A stretch of 64,000 bases of DNA from Pontibacter roseus DSM 17521 (lineage in GTDB: Bacteria; Bacteroidota; Bacteroidia; Cytophagales; Hymenobacteraceae): positions 461,432 through 525,431 of the forward strand of contig NZ_KB890766.1 of NCBI RefSeq assembly GCF_000373265.1. The letters are read 5' to 3'. Below the pieces are notes generated by a model. That model was not told the origin of the DNA. It saw nothing but the letters and a program-made list of their open reading frames with translations, and did no database searches. Shown here piece after piece: positions 40,868 through 50,878 of the stretch (positions within the stretch are counted from its first letter, which is position 1; each line of letters starts with the position of its first letter). Position numbers and translations under genes: made by a program.

Positions 40868-41291
40868 CTATAGACAAACCATTAGTATTAGGAAAGCCCG
40901 AACCATACCAAGTATAGTTCGGGCTTTTTTTGCAGGGGTAGTTGCGCCACACCAAAGTCACGATTCCCCATTCTTTGATGTTGATTTACTAAGTATCTGT
41001 AATACAGTAATTTGAGATTTGGATTTAAGTTGTAATAATCCGTATTATAGTTGAGCTGCAGTAAGAAGGTCATACTCCGTTAAGGCGGAACCTGTACCAG
41101 CTTTGCCCTCCTCTCTTTCCTCTGGTTCTGACAACAGAGCTCTTGCCAATTATGAGCTAACCTCATTGCTTGATTGAAACGCATTTACGAGGGTGATGTA
41201 TTCTTCCTTCGTTTGCAGTGCTGCAACAAGAGGCTTATTGAGTCAGCTAATTATCATGCTATACCCTGGGATTTTTAAACCAATAGAAGTA
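40868..41291. other. Gap with terminator and long leader of the EF-hand lipoprotein
   Basis: About 420 bases without a gene. It holds the terminator at 40893-40930. The upstream reading extension of the next gene (from 41193) lacks signal-peptide character, so I treat it as leader. Confidence 0.5.
40893..40930 (+). terminator. Terminator after the CBU_0592-like gene
   Basis: An AAAGCCCGAAC stem pairs with GTTCGGGCTTT around a short TATA-containing loop, followed by a run of seven T. A textbook intrinsic terminator. Confidence 0.9.
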
Positions 41292-42173
41292 ATGAAAAGG
41301 TGTACTTGCTACTTCTTTATCTTGACCTGCCTTGCTTTTGTGGCATGCGACGAGGAGGATGTTGCTCCTGTTAACAAGCTGCTGCCCGATACTGTTGCCC
41401 CGACAGTCGCCATTCAGGCGCCGGCAGCCAACGACTCTCTGCTGATAATTGATGTAATTGGAGTAGTTGCTGAAGTGGCTGATGACAAACGGATTGAAAA
41501 TGTACGGGTGTCTTTAGCTGAACCAGGTCGTGCCAGCCAGGTCATATCAGATGTCAAAGTCCCATTCAGTGAAGAAAAAAATTACACGGCAGGTGTACTT
41601 CATCGCTTGCCCAAAAACGCCGCCGCTTCAGGGGTGTATACGCTAACGGTTGAAGCCAGAGACATTGGCCAGAATGTGACCATCAAAACGGTTACGTTTT
41701 CCGTGAAGGCGCCGAGCGTGAGTAGAGCTACATTTGAACGTTCTTTCGATAATGCGTTCTATGAGAAACTCTCTGCCCCCTTGGATTGGTTCGCCTATAA
41801 TTTTTGGGATGAAGGGTATGCTTTCAGTGAGAATTGGTTGAGCACAGTGCTGTACCTCATGGTAACAACTTCTGATGACGAGTATAGTATCTCTGAGGCT
41901 GAATGGACAAAGTTTATGGCAGACTTCGGCATGAAGAATCAGTCCTGGGCGAAGTGGGACGAAGACAATGACGGAAACCTGAATGATATGGAATTTGAAC
42001 TGGGAATCAGCCGCTTGGGCTTGTTTAAAGAATGGGACAGGAGCAAGGATAAAATAGTCAACCTGGAAGAGCTAGCTACAGGGGTTTTTTCTCATTGGGA
42101 CCAGAACAAAGACAATCTGTTAGCAAAGGAGGAGTACTTAGAAAAGTTCAACACTTATCTATACCCCCGATAA
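41292..42173 (+). CDS. EF-hand lipoprotein with Ig-like N-terminal domain (copy 1)
   Basis: 293 residues from the ATG at 41292 (MKRCTCYFF), which gives lipobox AFVAC with Cys 19; the frame is open further up but without signal character. Residues about 35-135 look like a bacterial Ig/DUF4625-type beta domain (PDTVAPTVAIQAPAANDSLL, GVYTLTVEARDIGQN). The C-terminal 75 residues hold three EF-hand-like loops. The first, DEDNDGNLNDMEF (about residue 223), has D1-D3-D5-G6-E12 exactly as in calmodulin loops. The others (DRSKDKIVNLEEL and DQNKDNLLAKEEY) are also complete or nearly so. It is expected to bind Ca2+ at the cell surface or in the periplasm. Function is unknown. A paralogue follows 60 bp downstream. 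Confidence 0.78.
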   Translation: MKRCTCYFFILTCLAFVACDEEDVAPVNKLLPDTVAPTVAIQAPAANDSLLIIDVIGVVAEVADDKRIENVRVSLAEPGRASQVISDVKVPFSEEKNYTAGVLHRLPKNAAASGVYTLTVEARDIGQNVTIKTVTFSVKAPSVSRATFERSFDNAFYEKLSAPLDWFAYNFWDEGYAFSENWLSTVLYLMVTTSDDEYSISEAEWTKFMADFGMKNQSWAKWDEDNDGNLNDMEFELGISRLGLFKEWDRSKDKIVNLEELATGVFSHWDQNKDNLLAKEEYLEKFNTYLYPR

Positions 42174-42233
42174 AGTTGTATCTGTAGTAGCAAAGCCATA
42201 AAAAAACCATGATGCTTTAGAGCCAGGAAATTT

Positions 42234-43133
42234 ATGAAAAGGTACACTCGCTTCTATTTACTTCTACCTTTTCTGGCGTTGCTGGCATGCGACGAAGAGG
42301 TAGATGCACCGACTCCTAAGTTGGTGCCCGACACCGTTGCCCCGGCAGTGACCATTCTGACACCGATGGCCAATGACTCTTTGTTGGTTATAGGTGCGAT
42401 ACACGTAACTTTTGAAATTATGGAAGACAAGGAACTCGACAATGTACGGGTTGTCCTGGCTACACCTGGTAGCGATGCTCAGATAATTTCAAATGCTAAC
42501 ATTACTTCTTATCATGAATACCAGCGATACCACATGAACTTGGATTATCTGCTACCCAAAAACTCACAAACCGGAACCTATACCCTAACGGTTGAAGCCA
42601 AAGACAGAAGCCAGAACATGGGGAACCGTACGGTTGTTTTCACCTTGCATGATTCGGATATTAGCCAGCCGGATTTTAGTATGCCTTTCTTTTCTGCGTT
42701 TTCAAACTCCAAAGTCGCTGAGGCTCTGAATGGGGAAAGATTTAACTACTGGGAGGCTGGATTCAATAATTGGGACTACGGGTATGTGTTTGATGCCAAC
42801 TGGTTAAGCAAGGTGCTGTTGATTATGGCAGCCACAAATGCCGATTACACTGTCTCTGAGGCTGATTGGCAAAGGTTTATGGTAGACTTCGGCATCAAGA
42901 ACCAGTCCTGGACAAAGTGGGACCAAGACAAGGACGGAATCTTAACCGAAGCGGAGTTTGAGAAGGGTATAGACGGCCTGGAATTGCTCAAAGAGTGGGA
43001 TAAGAGCCAGGATGAACTTGTGGACCTAGATGAAATGGCAGTCGGGGTTTTCACTCGTTGGGACCAGAACAAAAACGGCAAGTTGAGCAAGGCGGAGTAC
43101 CTGGAGAAATTTTACGCTTATTTCTACCGTTAA
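42234..43133 (+). CDS. EF-hand lipoprotein with Ig-like N-terminal domain (copy 2)
   Basis: 299 residues. Lipobox ALLAC, Cys 19. Same layout as copy 1: Ig-like domain (PDTVAPAVTILTPMANDSLLVI...GTYTLTVEAKDRSQN), a W-rich middle (YWEAGFNNWDYGYVFDANWLSKVLLIM) and three EF-hand loops (DQDKDGILTEAEF, DKSQDELVDLDEM, DQNKNGKLSKAEY). By eye the last 75 residues of the two copies are roughly 55-60% identical. The conserved NQSW.KWD before the first loop suggests a helix that packs on the EF hands. The pair probably arose by tandem duplication and is co-transcribed. Confidence 0.78.
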   Translation: MKRYTRFYLLLPFLALLACDEEVDAPTPKLVPDTVAPAVTILTPMANDSLLVIGAIHVTFEIMEDKELDNVRVVLATPGSDAQIISNANITSYHEYQRYHMNLDYLLPKNSQTGTYTLTVEAKDRSQNMGNRTVVFTLHDSDISQPDFSMPFFSAFSNSKVAEALNGERFNYWEAGFNNWDYGYVFDANWLSKVLLIMAATNADYTVSEADWQRFMVDFGIKNQSWTKWDQDKDGILTEAEFEKGIDGLELLKEWDKSQDELVDLDEMAVGVFTRWDQNKNGKLSKAEYLEKFYAYFYR

Positions 43134-43261: not shown

Positions 43262-43942
43262 CTATACCTCCTTATCAGAAGGCAGGGCTGCCAGCACACG
43301 CACCACTACGGCATCGCAGCGCTTGTTGCCAAACTCAAACACATCTCCGCTAGAAGACAGCTTGAAGAGGCTCTCTTTAAGCATAGCCTTGGCACGGTGC
43401 AATCTCACCTTCACGTTCGCCTCTGACAGGTCCAGGCATTGGGCAACGTCCTGAATGGGCATCTCCTCCACTTCGCGCAGGGTATAGATGATTCTGTACT
43501 TCTCCGGTATGCTGTCAATGGCTTTCTCAAGCAGCAGCTTCACTTCCTGCCGTATGGCGATTTGCTCGGGGTTCATGGCGTTTGTCAGGTTTAGGAAATG
43601 GGGCAACACTTCTGGCTGGTCTACCAACAGCGCGTAGGGTGAAATCCGCTTCTGCTCCCGCAGCCGGGCCAATGCGTTGTTTATCCCAATCCGGATGAGC
43701 CAGGTGGAAAACAGGGCGTCGTTTCGGAACTGGTACAGCCTCTCATAAGCCCTCAGGTAGGTATCCTGCATGGTGTCCTCCACTTCCTGCTCCTGCTTCA
43801 GGTAGCTCCTGATTACGCGGTAAAGCTTCTGGTTATACCGCCGCATCAGGAGTTCATACAGCGATATGTCTCCTTCGAGCACGCGCGCGACGATGGCCGC
43901 ATCCGTCAGCTCAGTTTTCTCTACTGCCGTTACATGTTTCAT
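43262..43942 (-). CDS. ECF sigma factor (RpoE/SigW-type)
   Basis: 226 residues. Region 2 (about 20-85): YELLMRRYNQKLYRVIRSYLKQEQEVEDTMQDTYLRAYERLYQFRNDALFSTWLIRIGINNALARLRE. Region 4 (about 135-190): IDSIPEKYRIIYTLREVEEMPIQDVAQCLDLSEANVKVRLHRAKAMLKE. It directs RNA polymerase to a small regulon. No anti-sigma gene follows or overlaps. The divergent neighbour is a DoxX-like membrane protein with an ECF-type promoter in front of it. Confidence 0.93.
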   Translation of the reverse strand: MKHVTAVEKTELTDAAIVARVLEGDISLYELLMRRYNQKLYRVIRSYLKQEQEVEDTMQDTYLRAYERLYQFRNDALFSTWLIRIGINNALARLREQKRISPYALLVDQPEVLPHFLNLTNAMNPEQIAIRQEVKLLLEKAIDSIPEKYRIIYTLREVEEMPIQDVAQCLDLSEANVKVRLHRAKAMLKESLFKLSSSGDVFEFGNKRCDAVVVRVLAALPSDKEV

Positions 43943-44048: not shown

Positions 44049-44486
44049 ATGGAGGAAAACATCATGGAAACAATTGCATCAACTGGCGTACCCAGTGCCG
44101 AGCGCCCTGCCTACGACCGAATCGCCACCGCTATCGCGCTACAGAAGTATACGTATGCGCTGGTTCCTATAGTGGCGGGACTTGACAAATTCACGCACCT
44201 GCTCACCGACTGGGGCCAATACCTGGCGCCGGTGGTGGCTGATATGCTGCCTTTCAGCACGGCTACCTTTATGGGTGTGGTGGGTATAATCGAAATCCTG
44301 GCTGGCCTGCTGGTGCTGATTAAGCCTAGAATCGGGGCGCTGGTGGTAGGGCTGTGGCTGGTAAGCATCTCTGTGAACCTGCTGCTCACCGGCCAGTATT
44401 TGGACATAGCGGTGCGTGACCTGGTCATGGCTGTCGGTGCCTTCTCGCTATACCTGCTGCTGGGTGAGGTGAAAACGCAGCGGTAA
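44049..44486 (+). CDS. DoxX-like four-helix membrane protein
   Basis: 145 residues. A polar head of about 35 residues precedes four hydrophobic helices (YALVPIVAGLDKFTHLL, FMGVVGIIEILAGLLVLI, IGALVVGLWLVSISVNLLL and LVMAVGAFSLYLLLG). This resembles the DoxX/DUF417-like group, often linked to redox or thiol stress. It is divergent from the ECF sigma gene, which probably drives it. The exact activity is unknown. Confidence 0.7.
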   Translation: MEENIMETIASTGVPSAERPAYDRIATAIALQKYTYALVPIVAGLDKFTHLLTDWGQYLAPVVADMLPFSTATFMGVVGIIEILAGLLVLIKPRIGALVVGLWLVSISVNLLLTGQYLDIAVRDLVMAVGAFSLYLLLGEVKTQR

Positions 44487-44570: not shown

Positions 44571-44646
44571 TGCCCCCATATAACACGACAAGGCCAGATA
44601 CAAGGGAATAACCTTCTATATCCGGCCTTGTCGTGTTATATGGGCA
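44571..44646 (+). terminator. Very long stem-loop after the DoxX-like gene
   Basis: Arms 44571-44600 and 44619-44646 pair over about 28 bases. The central 19 bp (44577-44595 with 44624-44642) is perfect, and the left arm has two extra C. The 18-base loop contains AAGG/CCTT that can pair again. It lies 85 bp after the stop. It is longer than a normal terminator and could also be a small repeat element. Confidence 0.65.
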
Positions 44647-44731: not shown

Positions 44732-44761
44732 TTGACTTTGCGTAAAGCCTTATTAACTTTG
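44732..44761 (+). promoter_or_regulatory. Promoter of the membrane-protein/winged-helix operon
   Basis: TTG at 44732-44734 and TAACTTTG at 44754-44761, with 19 bases between, match the Bacteroidota -33/-7 promoter. The -7 box is overlapped by the palindrome at 44756. Confidence 0.55.
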
Positions 44762-44779
44762 AAACACAAAGTACTTTAA
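44756..44779 (+). promoter_or_regulatory. Operator copy 1 for the winged-helix regulator (inferred)
   Basis: An inverted repeat ACTTTG-N5-CAAAGT, followed by ACTTTAA, ends just before the ATG at 44781 and covers the -7 box. The same 24 bases recur with a single mismatch at 45738-45761, before the next gene set. Both sites flank the regulator gene at 45412, so autoregulation by that protein is the simplest reading. Confidence 0.6.
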
Positions 44780-44780
44780 C

Positions 44781-45404
44781 ATGAACCAGCAGCAAGACCA
44801 ATTAGCCACCCTGCACGAAATCCGGAACATCATGGACCGCTCGTCGCGTTTTATTTCGCTGAGCGGACTTTCAGGAGTAGCAGCCGGCGTCTCGGCGCTC
44901 ATCGGTGCGGCTGTCGTCAAGTGGTACCTGGTAACGCACAACATCAACTATCAGCAGGATGCAGGACTGAACCTGACCAGGGAAGCGGTTCTTTTTATGG
45001 TGGCCGTGGCGGCGTTTGTATTTATTCTCGCCTTCTGCTCGGCAGCCTATTTTACTATTCGCAACGTTCAGAAAACCAACCACCGGATATGGGACAGCAA
45101 AACGGAGCGGATGCTGGTCAACTTGTTTATACCCTTGGCAGCAGGCGGCATTTTCTGCGCCATCCTGATTTACCACAACCTGCTATACCTGGTGGCGCCT
45201 GTGATGCTTATTTTCTATGGATGTGCTTTGCTACATGCCAGCAAGTACACCCTGAGCGATATCCGGTACCTGGGCTTGTTTGAGATAGCATTGGGTTTGC
45301 TTGCCAGCTTCTTTGTAGGGTATGGTTTGCTGGCTTGGACTGTGGGTTTCGGGTTGCTGCACATCGTGTATGGTACGCTGATGTATTTCAAGTACGAACG
45401 CTAG
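44781..45404 (+). CDS. Membrane protein encoded with a winged-helix regulator
   Basis: 207 residues. A soluble head (MNQQQDQLATLHEIRNIMDRSSRFISLSGLSG) precedes six hydrophobic helices; YFTIRNVQKTNHRIWDSKTERML lies in a polar loop. The family is seen in Bacteroidota directly before small winged-helix regulators, but has no known function. The stop lies 7 bases before the GTG of the regulator gene, so translation is probably coupled. Confidence 0.75.
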   Translation: MNQQQDQLATLHEIRNIMDRSSRFISLSGLSGVAAGVSALIGAAVVKWYLVTHNINYQQDAGLNLTREAVLFMVAVAAFVFILAFCSAAYFTIRNVQKTNHRIWDSKTERMLVNLFIPLAAGGIFCAILIYHNLLYLVAPVMLIFYGCALLHASKYTLSDIRYLGLFEIALGLLASFFVGYGLLAWTVGFGLLHIVYGTLMYFKYER

Positions 45405-45411
45405 CAGGCCT

Positions 45412-45720
45412 GTGAAAGATTACCTTGAAAATATAAATAAGGCCTTCGAAAGCAAGGCGCGGTTGGGCATTATGTCTGTGCTGATGGTGGAAGAGAGGGT
45501 TGACTTCAGTACGCTGAAAGACACGCTGCAACTGACAGACGGCAACCTGGCCAGCCACCTGCGCGCGCTGGAAGAGGCCGAATACCTGCAGGTGGAGAAG
45601 CAGTTTGTGGGCCGTAAGCCGAACACCACCTACCAGGCTACCCCAGCTGGCCGTGAGGCGTTCAACGCGCATCTGGATGCACTGGAACAGCTTATTTTGA
45701 ACAACAGGAAGGACGCCTGA
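45412..45720 (+). CDS. Winged-helix DNA-binding regulator (PF13601-like)
   Basis: 102 residues with a GTG start at 45412; no ATG fits. The whole protein is one winged helix: KARLGIMSVLMVEERVDFSTLKDTLQLTDGNLASHLRALEEAEYLQVEKQFVGRKPNTTYQATPAGREAF. The recognition helix is DGNLASHLRALEEA and the wing is VGRKPNTTYQ. It is MarR/PadR-like in fold with no ligand domain, so it may sense through dimer contacts or the membrane partner. The likely targets are the two near-identical palindromes at 44756 and 45738. Confidence 0.85.
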   Translation: MKDYLENINKAFESKARLGIMSVLMVEERVDFSTLKDTLQLTDGNLASHLRALEEAEYLQVEKQFVGRKPNTTYQATPAGREAFNAHLDALEQLILNNRKDA

Positions 45721-45737
45721 TATTTTTTTGCATTCAA

Positions 45738-45761
45738 ACTTTGAAACTCAAAGTACTTTAA
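45738..45761 (+). promoter_or_regulatory. Operator copy 2 for the winged-helix regulator (inferred)
   Basis: A perfect inverted repeat ACTTTGA-AAC-TCAAAGT plus the ACTTTAA tail, 17 bases after the regulator's stop and 41 bases before the ATG at 45803. One mismatch in 24 separates it from copy 1. Confidence 0.6.
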
Positions 45762-45802
45762 ATAAAAATAACGAATTCACGCACACATTAAATTATAATA
45801 TC

Positions 45803-46141
45803 ATGAACAAGAGAGACAATGCATCATCACAGCCAATTCACTCCAACCCACTAGGTATGCGCATGCTGGTGGGCGCGGGTATCGGGTTGGTACTCATCTC
45901 ATTTTTCCTGCTCGGTGCAGGCGAGCCTGAACCAGAATGGTCCAGGTACTGGATGGTCAAGCCCCTGCTGGTTGTACCGTTGGCAGGTGCTATGGGTGGG
46001 CTGTTTTACCACCTCATGGATTATCTACGGTATGAAGGCGGCTGGCGCAGGGTATTGGCAAATGTCCTGAGCCTGCTGGTGCTCTTCCTTGTGCTTTGGC
46101 TAGGTATTGTGCTGGGACTGCACGGCACCATGTGGGACTAA
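45803..46141 (+). CDS. Small membrane protein, unknown function
   Basis: 112 residues from the ATG at 45803 (MNKRDNASSQPIHSNPLGMRML). The frame is open upstream but covers operator copy 2, so that start is rejected. Three hydrophobic helices (about 17-40, 57-75 and 88-107) are separated by GEPEPEWSRYWMVK and YLRYEGGWRR. It opens the second half of the regulated cluster. Confidence 0.7.
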   Translation: MNKRDNASSQPIHSNPLGMRMLVGAGIGLVLISFFLLGAGEPEPEWSRYWMVKPLLVVPLAGAMGGLFYHLMDYLRYEGGWRRVLANVLSLLVLFLVLWLGIVLGLHGTMWD

Positions 46142-46175
46142 GCATTCCGGCGAATCTGAAATCAGAACAGTGAAT

Positions 46176-47441
46176 ATGACTCAAAAGCCTAATACCATGA
46201 AAGACGAAATACTGAACCATCTAAACGACCCCGGGCAGCTCGAGAGGTTGTACCGAACCAACAAAGCACCGTTCAAGCGGGAGTTCAGCACGCTATACCC
46301 TGAACTGAGAGGCAACTCCCTGGCCGATTTCTGGAACGAAAGGCTGTACTACGAAAGTGATGAGATAAACTGGGGGACAGGCAGGGAGCTGTGGTTCGTG
46401 GTTGTCGCTTCACTCATCGCTGGTTTGATTGCCAAAATACCGGCCATGTTCCAGATAAACGAAGAGTTCTTCTACCCTAGGAATATTGGCTTCATCTTTC
46501 TGCCGCTCCTCACGGCCTACTTTGCCTGGAAAAACAACTTGCCCACCAGACAAGTTGCCATACTCTATGGCGTAATGCTGATTTCTCTCGTCTACATCAA
46601 CTTCCTGCCTGTCTCCACCACAAGCGATACCCTGGTGCTGGCCTGCATCCATTTACCCTTGCTGCTGTGGGTGCTCCTGGGGGCCGCCTATGTAGGCCGA
46701 AACCTCTCGGATTATACCCGGCGGCTCGACTACCTCAGGTATAACGGCGACCTGATTGTGATGACGACCCTCATCCTGATTGCAGGCGGCATTATGACAG
46801 GGCTCACCATTGGGTTGTTTGCCTTGATTGGGTTCCAGATTGAGCAGTTCTATTTTGAGTACGTCGCCATTTTCGGGCTGGCAGCTGCGCCTATCGTAGG
46901 TACCTACCTCACCCAGACCAACCCGCAGCTGGTAAACAAGGTCTCTCCGGTTATCGCTAAGATTTTCAGCCCGCTGGTTTTAATCATGCTGGTGATATAC
47001 CTGGGCGCCATCGTCTATTCCGGGAAAGACCCCTACAACGACAGGGAGTTCCTGATTATCTTCAACCTGCTGCTGATTGGGGTGATGGCCATCATTTTCT
47101 TCTCGGTGGCAGAAGGCTCCAAAACAGGCAGGAACACGACGGCTACCTGGGTGCTGTTCCTTTTGTCATCTGTAACGATTGTGGTGAATGGAATAGCCTT
47201 GTCGGCCATTCTGTTCCGGATAGCGGAGTGGGGCATTACCCCCAACAGGCTGGCCGTAATGGGCAGCAACCTGCTGATGCTGCTGAACCTGCTCTTCATT
47301 ACAGTACAGCTTTTCAAGTCACTCACCAGGAAATCCGATATCGCGGCGGTTGGCAAATCCATCGCCCTCTTCCTGCCCATCTACTGCGCCTGGGCAATTG
47401 TCGTGATTTTCCTCTTCCCCTTGATTTTCAGCTTTGCATAA
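46176..47441 (+). CDS. DUF4153 family membrane protein
   Basis: 421 residues from the ATG at 46176 (MTQKPNTMKDEIL); the ATG at 46197 is an equal alternative. A soluble head of about 60 residues (DPGQLERLYRTNKAPFKREFSTLYPEL) precedes about 10-11 hydrophobic helices. GRNLSDYTRRLDYLRYNGDLIVMTTLILIAGGI and FEYVAIFGLAAAPIVGTYLTQTNP are typical of the DUF4153 family. Function is unknown. It lies in the cluster of small membrane proteins under the presumed winged-helix control. Confidence 0.8.
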   Translation: MTQKPNTMKDEILNHLNDPGQLERLYRTNKAPFKREFSTLYPELRGNSLADFWNERLYYESDEINWGTGRELWFVVVASLIAGLIAKIPAMFQINEEFFYPRNIGFIFLPLLTAYFAWKNNLPTRQVAILYGVMLISLVYINFLPVSTTSDTLVLACIHLPLLLWVLLGAAYVGRNLSDYTRRLDYLRYNGDLIVMTTLILIAGGIMTGLTIGLFALIGFQIEQFYFEYVAIFGLAAAPIVGTYLTQTNPQLVNKVSPVIAKIFSPLVLIMLVIYLGAIVYSGKDPYNDREFLIIFNLLLIGVMAIIFFSVAEGSKTGRNTTATWVLFLLSSVTIVVNGIALSAILFRIAEWGITPNRLAVMGSNLLMLLNLLFITVQLFKSLTRKSDIAAVGKSIALFLPIYCAWAIVVIFLFPLIFSFA

Positions 47442-47479
47442 TCCCTTACAGACAATAAAATTTTAACCATAAGAAATTT

Positions 47480-47794
47480 ATGAACAACGAATCAAGTGCC
47501 TCAGAGTTGAGAATCAATCCTTTGACCATCATCAGCTGGATTTTTGGACTGCTCTTTTTCGCAGCCGGTTTTGTGAACACGTTTTGGGGAGGCGACACGG
47601 GCTTCGGGATTTTCATCATCCTGCTTTCGCTCGTGTACTTCCTTCCCGTGAATGACATCTTGAAGAAAATGGTAGGCTTCACTATACCTAGAATGAGGAT
47701 AGTGAAAATCGTGCTGGGCATCTTCATCATTTGGGCCACGATGGGAGTAGGGGATTTACCCGACAAAGTAGAAATGATGCTGATGGATTTGTAA
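47480..47794 (+). CDS. Small three-helix membrane protein (paralogue 1)
   Basis: 104 residues. ISWIFGLLFFAAGFVNTFWGG, GIFIILLSLVYFLPVNDILKK and MRIVKIVLGIFIIWATMGVGDL form three helices and a short polar end. The gene at 48136 has the same plan (SWI-G-F-G-N, FLILSLLY-P, IKIILGL-IW-T-GV-DL), so the two are paralogues separated by one gene. Function unknown. Confidence 0.7.
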   Translation: MNNESSASELRINPLTIISWIFGLLFFAAGFVNTFWGGDTGFGIFIILLSLVYFLPVNDILKKMVGFTIPRMRIVKIVLGIFIIWATMGVGDLPDKVEMMLMDL

Positions 47795-47842
47795 TGCTAG
47801 AAAACTATTATAATTATATCCTTAACCTAAAACAGAACCATT

Positions 47843-48133
47843 ATGCTTACACACAACAAAAGACTTATCGGTATTATGCTTACAGTAGTGTTTATACTAC
47901 TCATTCCGCTGGTAGCCATGCAGTTCACCGACGAAGTAAACTGGGACGCATTTGATTTCTTGGTCATGGGTGTCCTGCTGTTTGGCACGGGCTTACTCTG
48001 TGAACTGGTCTTGCGAAAGATAAAAAGCCAGGACAATGCACTCGCTGTCATAGCCGTAATCCTAGTGGTGCTCTTCCTCATCTGGGCTGAGCTTGCAGTT
48101 GGTATATTTGGGTCACCATTCGCCGGAAGCTAA
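47843..48133 (+). CDS. Small three-helix membrane protein, different family
   Basis: 96 residues. LIGIMLTVVFILLIPLVAMQFTDEVNW, FDFLVMGVLLFGTGLLCELVLRK and ALAVIAVILVVLFLIWAELAVGIFG. The short conserved TDEVNWDAFDF between helices 1 and 2 recurs in similar Bacteroidota proteins found beside DUF4153-type genes. Unknown function; 2 bases before the next ATG, so surely co-transcribed. Confidence 0.72.
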   Translation: MLTHNKRLIGIMLTVVFILLIPLVAMQFTDEVNWDAFDFLVMGVLLFGTGLLCELVLRKIKSQDNALAVIAVILVVLFLIWAELAVGIFGSPFAGS

Positions 48134-48135
48134 AC

Positions 48136-48417
48136 ATGAACACTATGAAAGACAACGTTATGACACTGAACATTACCAGCTGGATACTGGGTATAGTTAT
48201 TTTCGCGATTGGTGTACTGAACCTGGTTTTGGTACATCCCGTTCCGGGGCTGGTTTTCCTGATTCTATCCTTGCTCTACATCCCACAGACCGATGCACAA
48301 CTCAGGGGGAAACTCGGCTTTTCGATTCCGCTTGCTATAAAGATAATCCTGGGTCTGGTGAGTATCTGGTTCACGCTGGGTGTGAGCGACCTGGGCGACA
48401 TGCTTGACAAATTGTAA
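48136..48417 (+). CDS. Small three-helix membrane protein (paralogue 2)
   Basis: 93 residues, paralogue of the protein at 47480. TSWILGIVIFAIGVLNLVLV, LVFLILSLLYIPQTDAQLRGK, LAIKIILGLVSIWFTLGVSDLGDML. It ends the cluster; the terminator lies at 48532. Confidence 0.7.
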   Translation: MNTMKDNVMTLNITSWILGIVIFAIGVLNLVLVHPVPGLVFLILSLLYIPQTDAQLRGKLGFSIPLAIKIILGLVSIWFTLGVSDLGDMLDKL

Positions 48418-49770: not shown

Positions 49771-49927
49771 ATTTCAAATTTCCCTGCCCGTTGTTGAAGG
49801 TATAGGCCCGCTAAGGGATTATTCGGGACAGGATTTCCGTTGCTTCCATGCGACAAGTCACACAGATAGGACTTGACTAGATTGAGTAGAAAAACCATCT
49901 ATAAAAACAGTTTAGCTATTAGTGTTT

Positions 49928-50878
49928 ATGGCCTGCCAGGTAGATTTTAAAGGCGAGAAAGTGGTGTCTGTAGAAGGTGGTCAGACCTTGTTGCAAGCAT
50001 CACTGGCTGCCGGTATACCCCATTACCACGCCTGTGGCGGGAAAGGGCAATGTACTACCTGCCGCGTACTGGTAGTGGAAGGGCAGGAGAAGCTGACGCC
50101 GCCCACAAGCTACGAGCGCGCCATCCGGAACGTGAAGAAGTTCCCGGATATCGTACGGCTGGCTTGCCAATCTTATGTAACCGGCGAAGGGGTGGAGGTG
50201 CGTCGGTTGATTCGTGACGAAACAGACCGCTATATTTTTATAGACAGCCAGGAGGACAGCACCATGACCGTGATGGGAGAACGGCGCAAGCTGGCGCTTT
50301 TCTTCATCGACATTCGCAGCTTTACCCCCTTCATAGAGGCCAATCTTCCCTTCGATGTCATCCACATCATGCGAAGGATTTTTGGGCTCTTTCGTAATGC
50401 CATCGCCTTGTACCAAGGCGAAATCATCGATACGTCTGGGGACGGGCTGTACGCGGTTTTTGGGCTTAACAGCCGCATCAAGAAAGCAACTGAGTCGGCT
50501 GTGCTGGCAGGCCTGAAAATTCTGGAAGATATCAAAATCTTCAACAACACCTACATGCGACCCTACTTCAACCATACCTTTGAGGTAGGTATAGGCGTGC
50601 ACGTGGGAAATGTGATTGTGGGGAATGTGGGCATTGGTATAAGTAATAACCTCACGGTGATGGGCTTTCCGGTGAATATAGCCGCCCGGTTGCAGGCAGC
50701 CACCAAGGAGCTCGACAATAGCTTTGTGATTTCAGCCATTGCGTATCGCTTGCTTCGGAACCCGCCGTATGCCGTAGGTTGCAATTACCTGAACCTAAAG
50801 GGTGTCAGCAATGCCTACGAGGTCAAGCTGATAGGAAAACCCTACGAGGTAAAACAAGGAAAAGAAGGTCTTGGCTAG
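49928..50878 (+). CDS. 2Fe-2S ferredoxin - class III nucleotide cyclase fusion
   Basis: 316 residues from the ATG at 49928 (MACQVDFKGEKV); a GTG two codons earlier is possible. Residues 1-95 are a ferredoxin domain with C36, C42, C45 and C80, a C-x5-C-x2-C...C pattern that should bind [2Fe-2S]. Residues about 120-300 are a class III adenylate/guanylate cyclase domain. The metal-binding Asp residues are D128 (FFIDIRSFT) and D172 (DTSGDGLYAVFG), and the transition-state residues lie in GFPVNIAARLQ. There is no membrane helix. A redox-gated cyclic-nucleotide output is an inference from the architecture. Whether it makes cAMP or cGMP cannot be read safely. Confidence 0.88.
   Translation: MACQVDFKGEKVVSVEGGQTLLQASLAAGIPHYHACGGKGQCTTCRVLVVEGQEKLTPPTSYERAIRNVKKFPDIVRLACQSYVTGEGVEVRRLIRDETDRYIFIDSQEDSTMTVMGERRKLALFFIDIRSFTPFIEANLPFDVIHIMRRIFGLFRNAIALYQGEIIDTSGDGLYAVFGLNSRIKKATESAVLAGLKILEDIKIFNNTYMRPYFNHTFEVGIGVHVGNVIVGNVGIGISNNLTVMGFPVNIAARLQAATKELDNSFVISAIAYRLLRNPPYAVGCNYLNLKGVSNAYEVKLIGKPYEVKQGKEGLG

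Follow-up and report, generated by a model that had tools for sequence, protein, structure and literature searches.

Paired copies of a three-half-site element around a membrane protein and winged-helix regulator gene pair in Pontibacter roseus and other Bacteroidota

In a 64,000-nucleotide stretch of the genome of Pontibacter roseus DSM 17521 (contig NZ_KB890766.1, positions 461,432 to 525,431; here called the window), two near-identical copies of a DNA element, site A and site B, flank two adjoining genes, one for a membrane protein of no known family (A) and one for a small winged-helix regulator (R), and a run of membrane-protein genes (cargo genes B to F) follows site B. Genes A and R with both sites, a unit that we call the cassette, were found at loci across the Bacteroidota ahead of cargo that differs from lineage to lineage, an arrangement that points to a possible widespread circuit for control of the envelope. 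The reading that we favor, with chances that we put a little above even, is that R represses both its own operon and the cargo operon and that A provides the signal.

The element pair in the window

Site A (AACTTTGAAACACAAAGTACTTTAA) and site B (AACTTTGAAACTCAAAGTACTTTAA) are 25 bases each, differ at a single position, and lie 982 bp apart, in agreement with an earlier note on this DNA that had reported a near-identical pair. The palindrome described in that note was indeed found, perfect in site B (7+3+7) and with one mismatch in site A; its view of the element as a mere palindrome did not hold, since the core conserved among related loci (ACTTTG-N-A-NNN-CAAAG-TA-CTTT) is longer and contains three half-sites. 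The exact pattern ACTTTGN5CAAAGT occurred twice in the whole 4.58-Mb genome, both times at A-R (control pattern, once), and the stricter pattern ACTTTGAAACWCAAAGT also occurred twice (control, none). Palindromes with up to three mismatches were not above chance in the window (4 found, 3.56 expected), and it is the near-exact pair, not palindrome frequency in the window, that is the unusual feature. One copy lies on the −7 box of the first operon, TAACTTTG overlapping the left arm of site A, and the other precedes the membrane-protein operon, both as the earlier note had placed them. TAnnTTTG is given as the sigma-A −7 consensus of Flavobacterium psychrophilum in PMC9723704.

A larger regulon within the P. 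roseus genome was considered and rejected: with as many as three mismatches permitted in the extended motif, 11 forward and 7 reverse matches were obtained versus 4 and 5 for the control. Two of these matches were perfect, and several others belonged to a related family, TAC[CT]TTGN5CAA[AG]GTAC (TACYTTG). Members of this family and degenerate copies of it were observed at C2:209340, C5:624060, C8:89311, C5:63421, and C9:159888 (L305, L307, L309, L315, and L320, respectively). The copy at L315, a degenerate one, adjoins a gene judged by eye to encode a PadR-like regulator. The TACYTTG family may represent a distinct regulon that has a sister operator.

Conservation of the cassette and of the extended motif

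Loci were gathered by homology to A or R, irrespective of the motif. Within the family, R was found in 198 of 200 genomes, that of P. roseus included. G097, the only one of the 49 other genus genomes without R, had no exact site either; G199 (83% complete), the other family genome without R, had one exact site; and in G039 and G041 R was present and the exact site absent. The 50 genus genomes, again including that of P. roseus, held 119 exact sites in total versus 24 matches to the control pattern. Loss of the element where orthologous loci retain the genes had been named in the earlier note as one finding that would tell against its regulon; this check was made, and its outcome did not refute the regulon. 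Both sites were present, neither with more than one mismatch, at all 29 loci from other genomes (L004-L032), and at each of 39 longer loci from six genera one site preceded A and a second followed R within 1.2 kb. A larger set was assembled from 39 loci chosen by R, the 29 best phylum matches (L124-L152), and the best 80 of 571 confirmed matches. In the resulting 142 Bacteroidota loci, unique by a 200-base stretch of A, exclusive of the window itself, and leaning to relatives with a well-matching A, a site (one mismatch permitted in ACTTTGN5CAAAGT) lay at most 120 bp ahead of A in 133, at most 400 bp behind R in 125, and at both places in 122. Among the 17 loci with no site within 400 bp behind R, three (L083, L085, and L097) had one farther downstream, one (L227) showed a weaker copy with the T tract typical of site B, and four (L129, L169, L209, and L214) showed hairpin-like sequence behind R instead, the last two classes being assigned by eye.

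When 296 genomes from the phylum were sampled, 98 proved to contain A. Among the best 80 of the 571 matches, the named loci include those of Adhaeribacter, Rufibacter, Runella, Pedobacter, Flavobacterium, Chryseobacterium, Gramella, and Saprospiraceae. In 108 of 109 loci, R followed A (the remaining one, L221, stops at a contig end), and the gap between A and R was at most 421 bp save at one locus, where it measured 1.9 kb. Some genomes carry a second, diverged cassette; in two such cases (L099 and L100, with R 76% and 73% identical), it precedes an exosortase-family gene and a gene for a VIT-domain membrane protein.

Conservation of the arms is partly built in, as these were used in the search; the A at position 7 and the trailing CTTT were not searched for. 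This A was conserved in 92% of site A and 98% of site B copies, and the CTTT columns (positions 18 to 21) reached 95 to 98% and 98 to 100%, respectively, with the complete CTTT present in 121 of 133 and 122 of 125 copies. The extended pattern ACTTTGNANNNCAAAGNACTTT was found in 63 of the 296 phylum genomes (reversed control, 0 of 296), namely, in 59 of the 98 with A versus 4 of the 198 without it. In three of these four exceptions (L299, L300, and L301), the site adjoins an R homologue, and an A-like gene is present that is too diverged for the profile cut-off; in the fourth (L298, genome G212), neither A nor R was found. We also classified by strict rules 71 copies of the motif from loci chosen among the motif matches listed, mostly unlinked to A-R (L247 and L253 hold A-R, and L299 to L301 hold R): 4 were site A-like, 16 had a T run, and 14 had TAnnTTTG just downstream (one copy had both). 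At loci taken from these matches, the motif also lay ahead of homologues of cargo gene E and of DUF4153-like, ATP-binding cassette (ABC), and other genes.

Proposed control at site A and site B

By strict rules, a −33/−7 pair lay over the left arm in 85 of 133 site A sequences versus 1 of 125 site B sequences, and the element overlaps the regulator's own promoter in these 85 as in the window. R probably represses its own operon, since site A appears to sit on a sigma-A promoter. The assignment of site B to the promoter type of site A was rejected on these counts, and the earlier note is to be corrected in that the second copy has no recognizable sigma-A promoter. A run of six T preceded 113 of 125 site B copies versus 6 of 133 site A copies and ended at position −9 relative to the element in 105 of 125 site B copies; AAAA or TTTT plus TTT at −15 to −9 was found in 115 of 125 site B versus 1 of 133 site A copies. 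Hairpins before the tract were in small or no excess (median, −0.6 versus −0.75 kcal/mol in shuffled sequences), with 6 of 115 (5.2%) below −6 kcal/mol versus 2.9% in shuffles, and a normal intrinsic terminator was rejected as an explanation of the T tract on these grounds. The facts at site B speak against an ordinary promoter; they are compatible alike with a read-through gate, an over-long promoter, and a promoter of an unrecognized kind.

The sequences themselves show the element and its extension, how well these are conserved, the link to A-R, the overlap with the promoter at site A, and the types of cargo; we infer that R recognizes the 22-bp three-half-site element at both sites. TDGNLASH, a putative recognition stretch of R, did not vary among 19 aligned R proteins, which a fixed operator would lead one to expect. 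R would shut off its own operon at site A, where the element lies over the −7 box and over the probable start of the A-R promoter; at site B, R would hold down the adjoining envelope-protein operon. R has no sensor domain, and the signal would most likely come from its constant partner A, whose conserved N-terminal helix might hold R or let it go. The role of A as the signal is the step that we hold least firmly, below the reading as a whole; if a membrane protein does signal, A is likelier to do so than the cargo, because A is the constant neighbor of R and the cargo varies. The A-R-operator cassette would then be a module that Bacteroidota set ahead of differing envelope genes. Several observations weigh against this reading. 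Site B has no recognizable sigma-A promoter, so that a plain promoter block has to be assumed there; a wider regulon was not seen in the P. roseus genome when TACTTTGN5CAAAGTA was matched with up to two mismatches (21 matches versus 18 for the control); and the exact extended motif was absent from 39 of the 98 genomes with A, several of which gave sites upon relaxed matching. In addition, 38 of the 71 copies matched no promoter or tract rule, most copies away from A-R thus being unclassified by the strict rules, and the Fisher test of co-occurrence of motif and A (P of about 1e-30) takes no account of relatedness.

It is possible, if doubtful, that a single R works through the same element in two modes, blocking its own promoter at site A and exerting a nonstandard control of the cargo at site B, the latter being either a hairpin-less, repressor-gated end of transcription on the A/T tract or the remodeling of an over-long promoter. 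With a gate, polymerase coming from site A would cross A and R, stall at R bound to site B over the T tract, and be released, so that the cargo would be expressed only when R lets go. We consider such a gate unlikely. It would accommodate a site B with next to no sigma-A promoters (1 of 125), a T tract upstream (113 of 125), and no excess of hairpins, and also the position of the tract, which stays next to the operator in 13 of the 16 loci with over 40 bp between R and site B. Four cargo loci with no A or R in the fetched stretch (L243, L244, L246, and L295) likewise keep a promoter-type site followed 143 to 367 bp later by a tract-type site, and roadblocks formed by repressors (LacI, CcpA, and CodY) are described in PMC4132739 and PMC10310618. 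However, the tract is AAAATTT rather than TTTTTTT in 8 of 125 site B copies, which would weaken release on a U tract, and at least one tract-type site (L280) has an upstream gene that is divergent and not on the same strand.

MerR-type promoters have over-long spacers, and the operator could fill such a spacer at site B, with R remodeling and activating a promoter made of TTTR at −11 to −8, a 23-bp spacer, and, in the role of −7 box, the TACTTT that belongs to the third half-site. That R is an HTH_34 protein from outside the MerR family, and that conservation of the extension is just as high at site A, which has no need of it as a −7 box, make this rather improbable in our view. The match to a −7 box is also poor: T16 or A17 is replaced in 11 to 14% of site B copies, and the last −7 position is G in only 4 of 125. 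The first start codons, taken from longest open reading frames, sometimes lie only at +22 to +28. Consistent with activation, on the other hand, are the conservation of TTTR and TACTTT 23 bp apart, the purine at −8 in 120 of 125 site B copies, and the placement (−11, +16), the commonest −33/−7 placement when spacers of 22 to 25 bp are considered (68 of 125, partly since these columns are conserved anyway); TTTG at −7 to −4 in L257, L276, and L280 leaves, by eye, a 19-bp spacer to TACTTT, and the A/T tract could serve as an upstream promoter element. Very unlikely, to our mind, is that the element is that of another regulator, or a promoter variant, lying beside A-R by chance. The exact sites of P. 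roseus are at A-R only, the motif tracks A-R through the phylum and occupies both flanks in 122 of 142 loci, and its left arm doubles as the −7 box at site A and not at site B; what would suit such a coincidence is the related TAC[CT]TTGN5CAA[AG]GTAC family, with its degenerate copy adjoining a PadR-like gene (L315), and genome G212, which has the extended motif at L298 and in which no A or R was found.

Proteins, cargo, and surroundings of the cassette

R is the 102-residue winged-helix protein that the earlier note had seen between the elements. It matched HTH_34 (PF13601) as a single domain over profile positions 2 to 80 of 80 (2.2e-32; 111.5 bits; cut-off, 27), and its predicted structure was a winged helix with helices and two wing strands (predicted local distance difference test [pLDDT], 88.2, from 19 sequences). 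Two other families were rejected for R, namely, PadR (PF03551; 18.6 bits, under the cut-off of 27) and the ArsR/SmtB metalloregulators (NF033788; 29 bits, under the cut-off of 55). The predicted structure of A consisted of an N-terminal helix and six further long helices (pLDDT, 79.1; residues 18 to 26 below 50). The A protein of the window had no Pfam match above the cut-off, and NCBIfam at an E value of ≤1 gave just two matches, far under the cut-off. When 19 A members were scanned, no Pfam family was matched by more than four of them (best E value, 8.4e-4, for a single member), NCBIfam gave one match (0.0092), and no fold relative was found in the PDB library at an E value of ≤0.001. The 19 aligned A sequences had 40 invariant columns, 16 of them within the first 43 residues, and loop charges would place the N-terminal helix in the cytoplasm.

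The six proteins A, B, C, D, E, and F all look like membrane proteins, and D and F cross-match, which bears out the earlier claims of six membrane proteins and of two paralogues. The assignment of C to DUF4153 (PF13687) fared less well and was rejected. C itself had no Pfam match at an E value of ≤1; 9 of 16 members of its family matched DUF4153, the best at 8.5e-4; and profile-profile comparison (hhalign) with true DUF4153 cargo gave a probability of 0.5% (with just three sequences on the DUF4153 side). A first hhalign comparison of C, DUF4153, and CreD alignments gave no relationship, the C alignment being poor (507 columns for 414 residues). The single DUF4153 gene of P. roseus lies on a different contig.

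Cargo at the 142 loci was clustered from longest open reading frames, at most four per locus, and each cluster took its name from a few of its members that were scanned with Pfam. DUF4153-like cargo was present in 50 loci, D/F in 26, CreD in 21 (4 short fragments and 17 near full length), DUF1361 in 14, and Coq4-like cargo in 13, besides the B, C, and E clusters (Table 1); 121 loci had one or more of DUF4153, E, D/F, C, B, CreD, and DUF1361. One representative each matched Pfam DUF4153 (5.2e-43), CreD (3.5e-153), and DUF1361 (6.4e-42), and a radical SAM protein was among the further cargo. By these assignments, the cargo changes by lineage (DUF4153, CreD, DUF1361, and exosortase), the apparent shared theme is the envelope, and some of the cargo does not consist of membrane proteins. 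The presence of true DUF4153, CreD, and DUF1361 genes behind the cassette in relatives fits an envelope role. At L283-L287, in Flavobacteriia-side genomes, pairs of the extended element were observed to precede two small genes, one of which resembles Coq4; these pairs follow hairpin-like sequences, and no A or R match was present in the fetched stretch.

A winged-helix autoregulator with a membrane-protein neighbor is known in kind. PadR-type regulators are small, autoregulated winged-helix repressors with such a neighbor, and the A-R pair resembles them in having an operator on its own promoter and a membrane-protein gene adjoining the regulator; it differs in that R scores under the PadR cut-off, A belongs to no known family, the number of half-sites is three, and behind R there is a second operator. 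In the Mlc-PtsG system, a membrane protein sequesters a repressor, and the logic may be alike, with a membrane protein controlling a sensor-less repressor, although the protein families are different and contact of A with R is hypothetical. In Escherichia coli, the two-component system CreBC controls creD. CreD is cargo in some Bacteroidota loci, but here it is one of several cargoes and follows a pair made of a winged-helix protein and a membrane protein. By sequence, R is related to PH1061, the structure of which has been solved (1ub9; 1.5e-8), and PH1061 and HTH_34, like R, consist of a single winged-helix domain of about 100 residues; no operator, membrane partner, or regulon was found reported for HTH_34/PH1061, and no description of the cassette was found, in the open-licence literature exclusive of preprints. 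What appears unusual is that the three-half-site operator is fixed and recurs behind the regulator together with an A/T tract, that the arrangement is spread through the phylum, and that its cargo is exchanged. The cassette joins an unnamed membrane-protein family to an uncharacterized regulator and operator across Bacteroidota, and it thereby provides a point of entry to the regulation of envelope genes (DUF4153, CreD, DUF1361, and exosortase cargo). The roles of these genes in Bacteroidota are, to our knowledge, poorly understood. Site B, in turn, is well suited to a clean test of control that seems unlike that of a standard promoter.

Table 1. Features of the cassette and its cargo in the window
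Feature	Position (strand)	Description	Basis or occurrence
Probable A-R operon promoter	44732..44761 (+)	TTG 44732-44734, 19-bp spacer, −7 box TAACTTTG 44754-44761	
Site A, first copy	44755..44779 (+)	22-bp core 44756-44777, third half-site CTTT 44774-44777	
Gene A	44781..45404 (+)	207-aa membrane protein, no known family	Library scans, predicted structure
Gene R	45412..45720 (+)	102-aa HTH_34 winged-helix regulator, GTG start	Profile match, predicted structure
T7 tract	45723..45729 (+)	At fixed spacing ahead of site B	Window sequence
Site B, second copy	45737..45761 (+)	22-bp core 45738-45759, third half-site CTTT 45756-45759	
Cargo gene B	45803..46141 (+)	112-aa membrane protein	Related genes in 29/142 loci
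Cargo gene C	46197..47441 (+)	414-aa polytopic membrane protein; assignment to DUF4153 unsupported	Related genes in 32/142 loci
Cargo gene D	47480..47794 (+)	104-aa small membrane protein, F paralogue	Cross-matches
Cargo gene E	47843..48133 (+)	96-aa small membrane protein	Related genes in 39/142 loci
Cargo gene F	48136..48417 (+)	93-aa small membrane protein, D paralogue	Cross-matches

Upstream of the cassette, a long inverted repeat (44575-44644) with 26-nucleotide arms that are 96% complementary and 18 nucleotides between them separates the gene at 44064-44483 from site A and is terminator-like. Farther upstream and on the opposite strand is a gene for a sigma factor of the sigma-70 family (43262-43942, −), similar to extracytoplasmic function sigma factors and with regions 2 and 4, preceded by two tandem, similar lipoprotein-like genes (41193-42173 and 42234-43133, together 41193-43133, +) with EF-hand-like repeats and bacterial Ig-like matches. 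Downstream, the gene at 49922-50878 (+) encodes a 2Fe-2S ferredoxin domain fused to an adenylate/guanylate cyclase catalytic domain.

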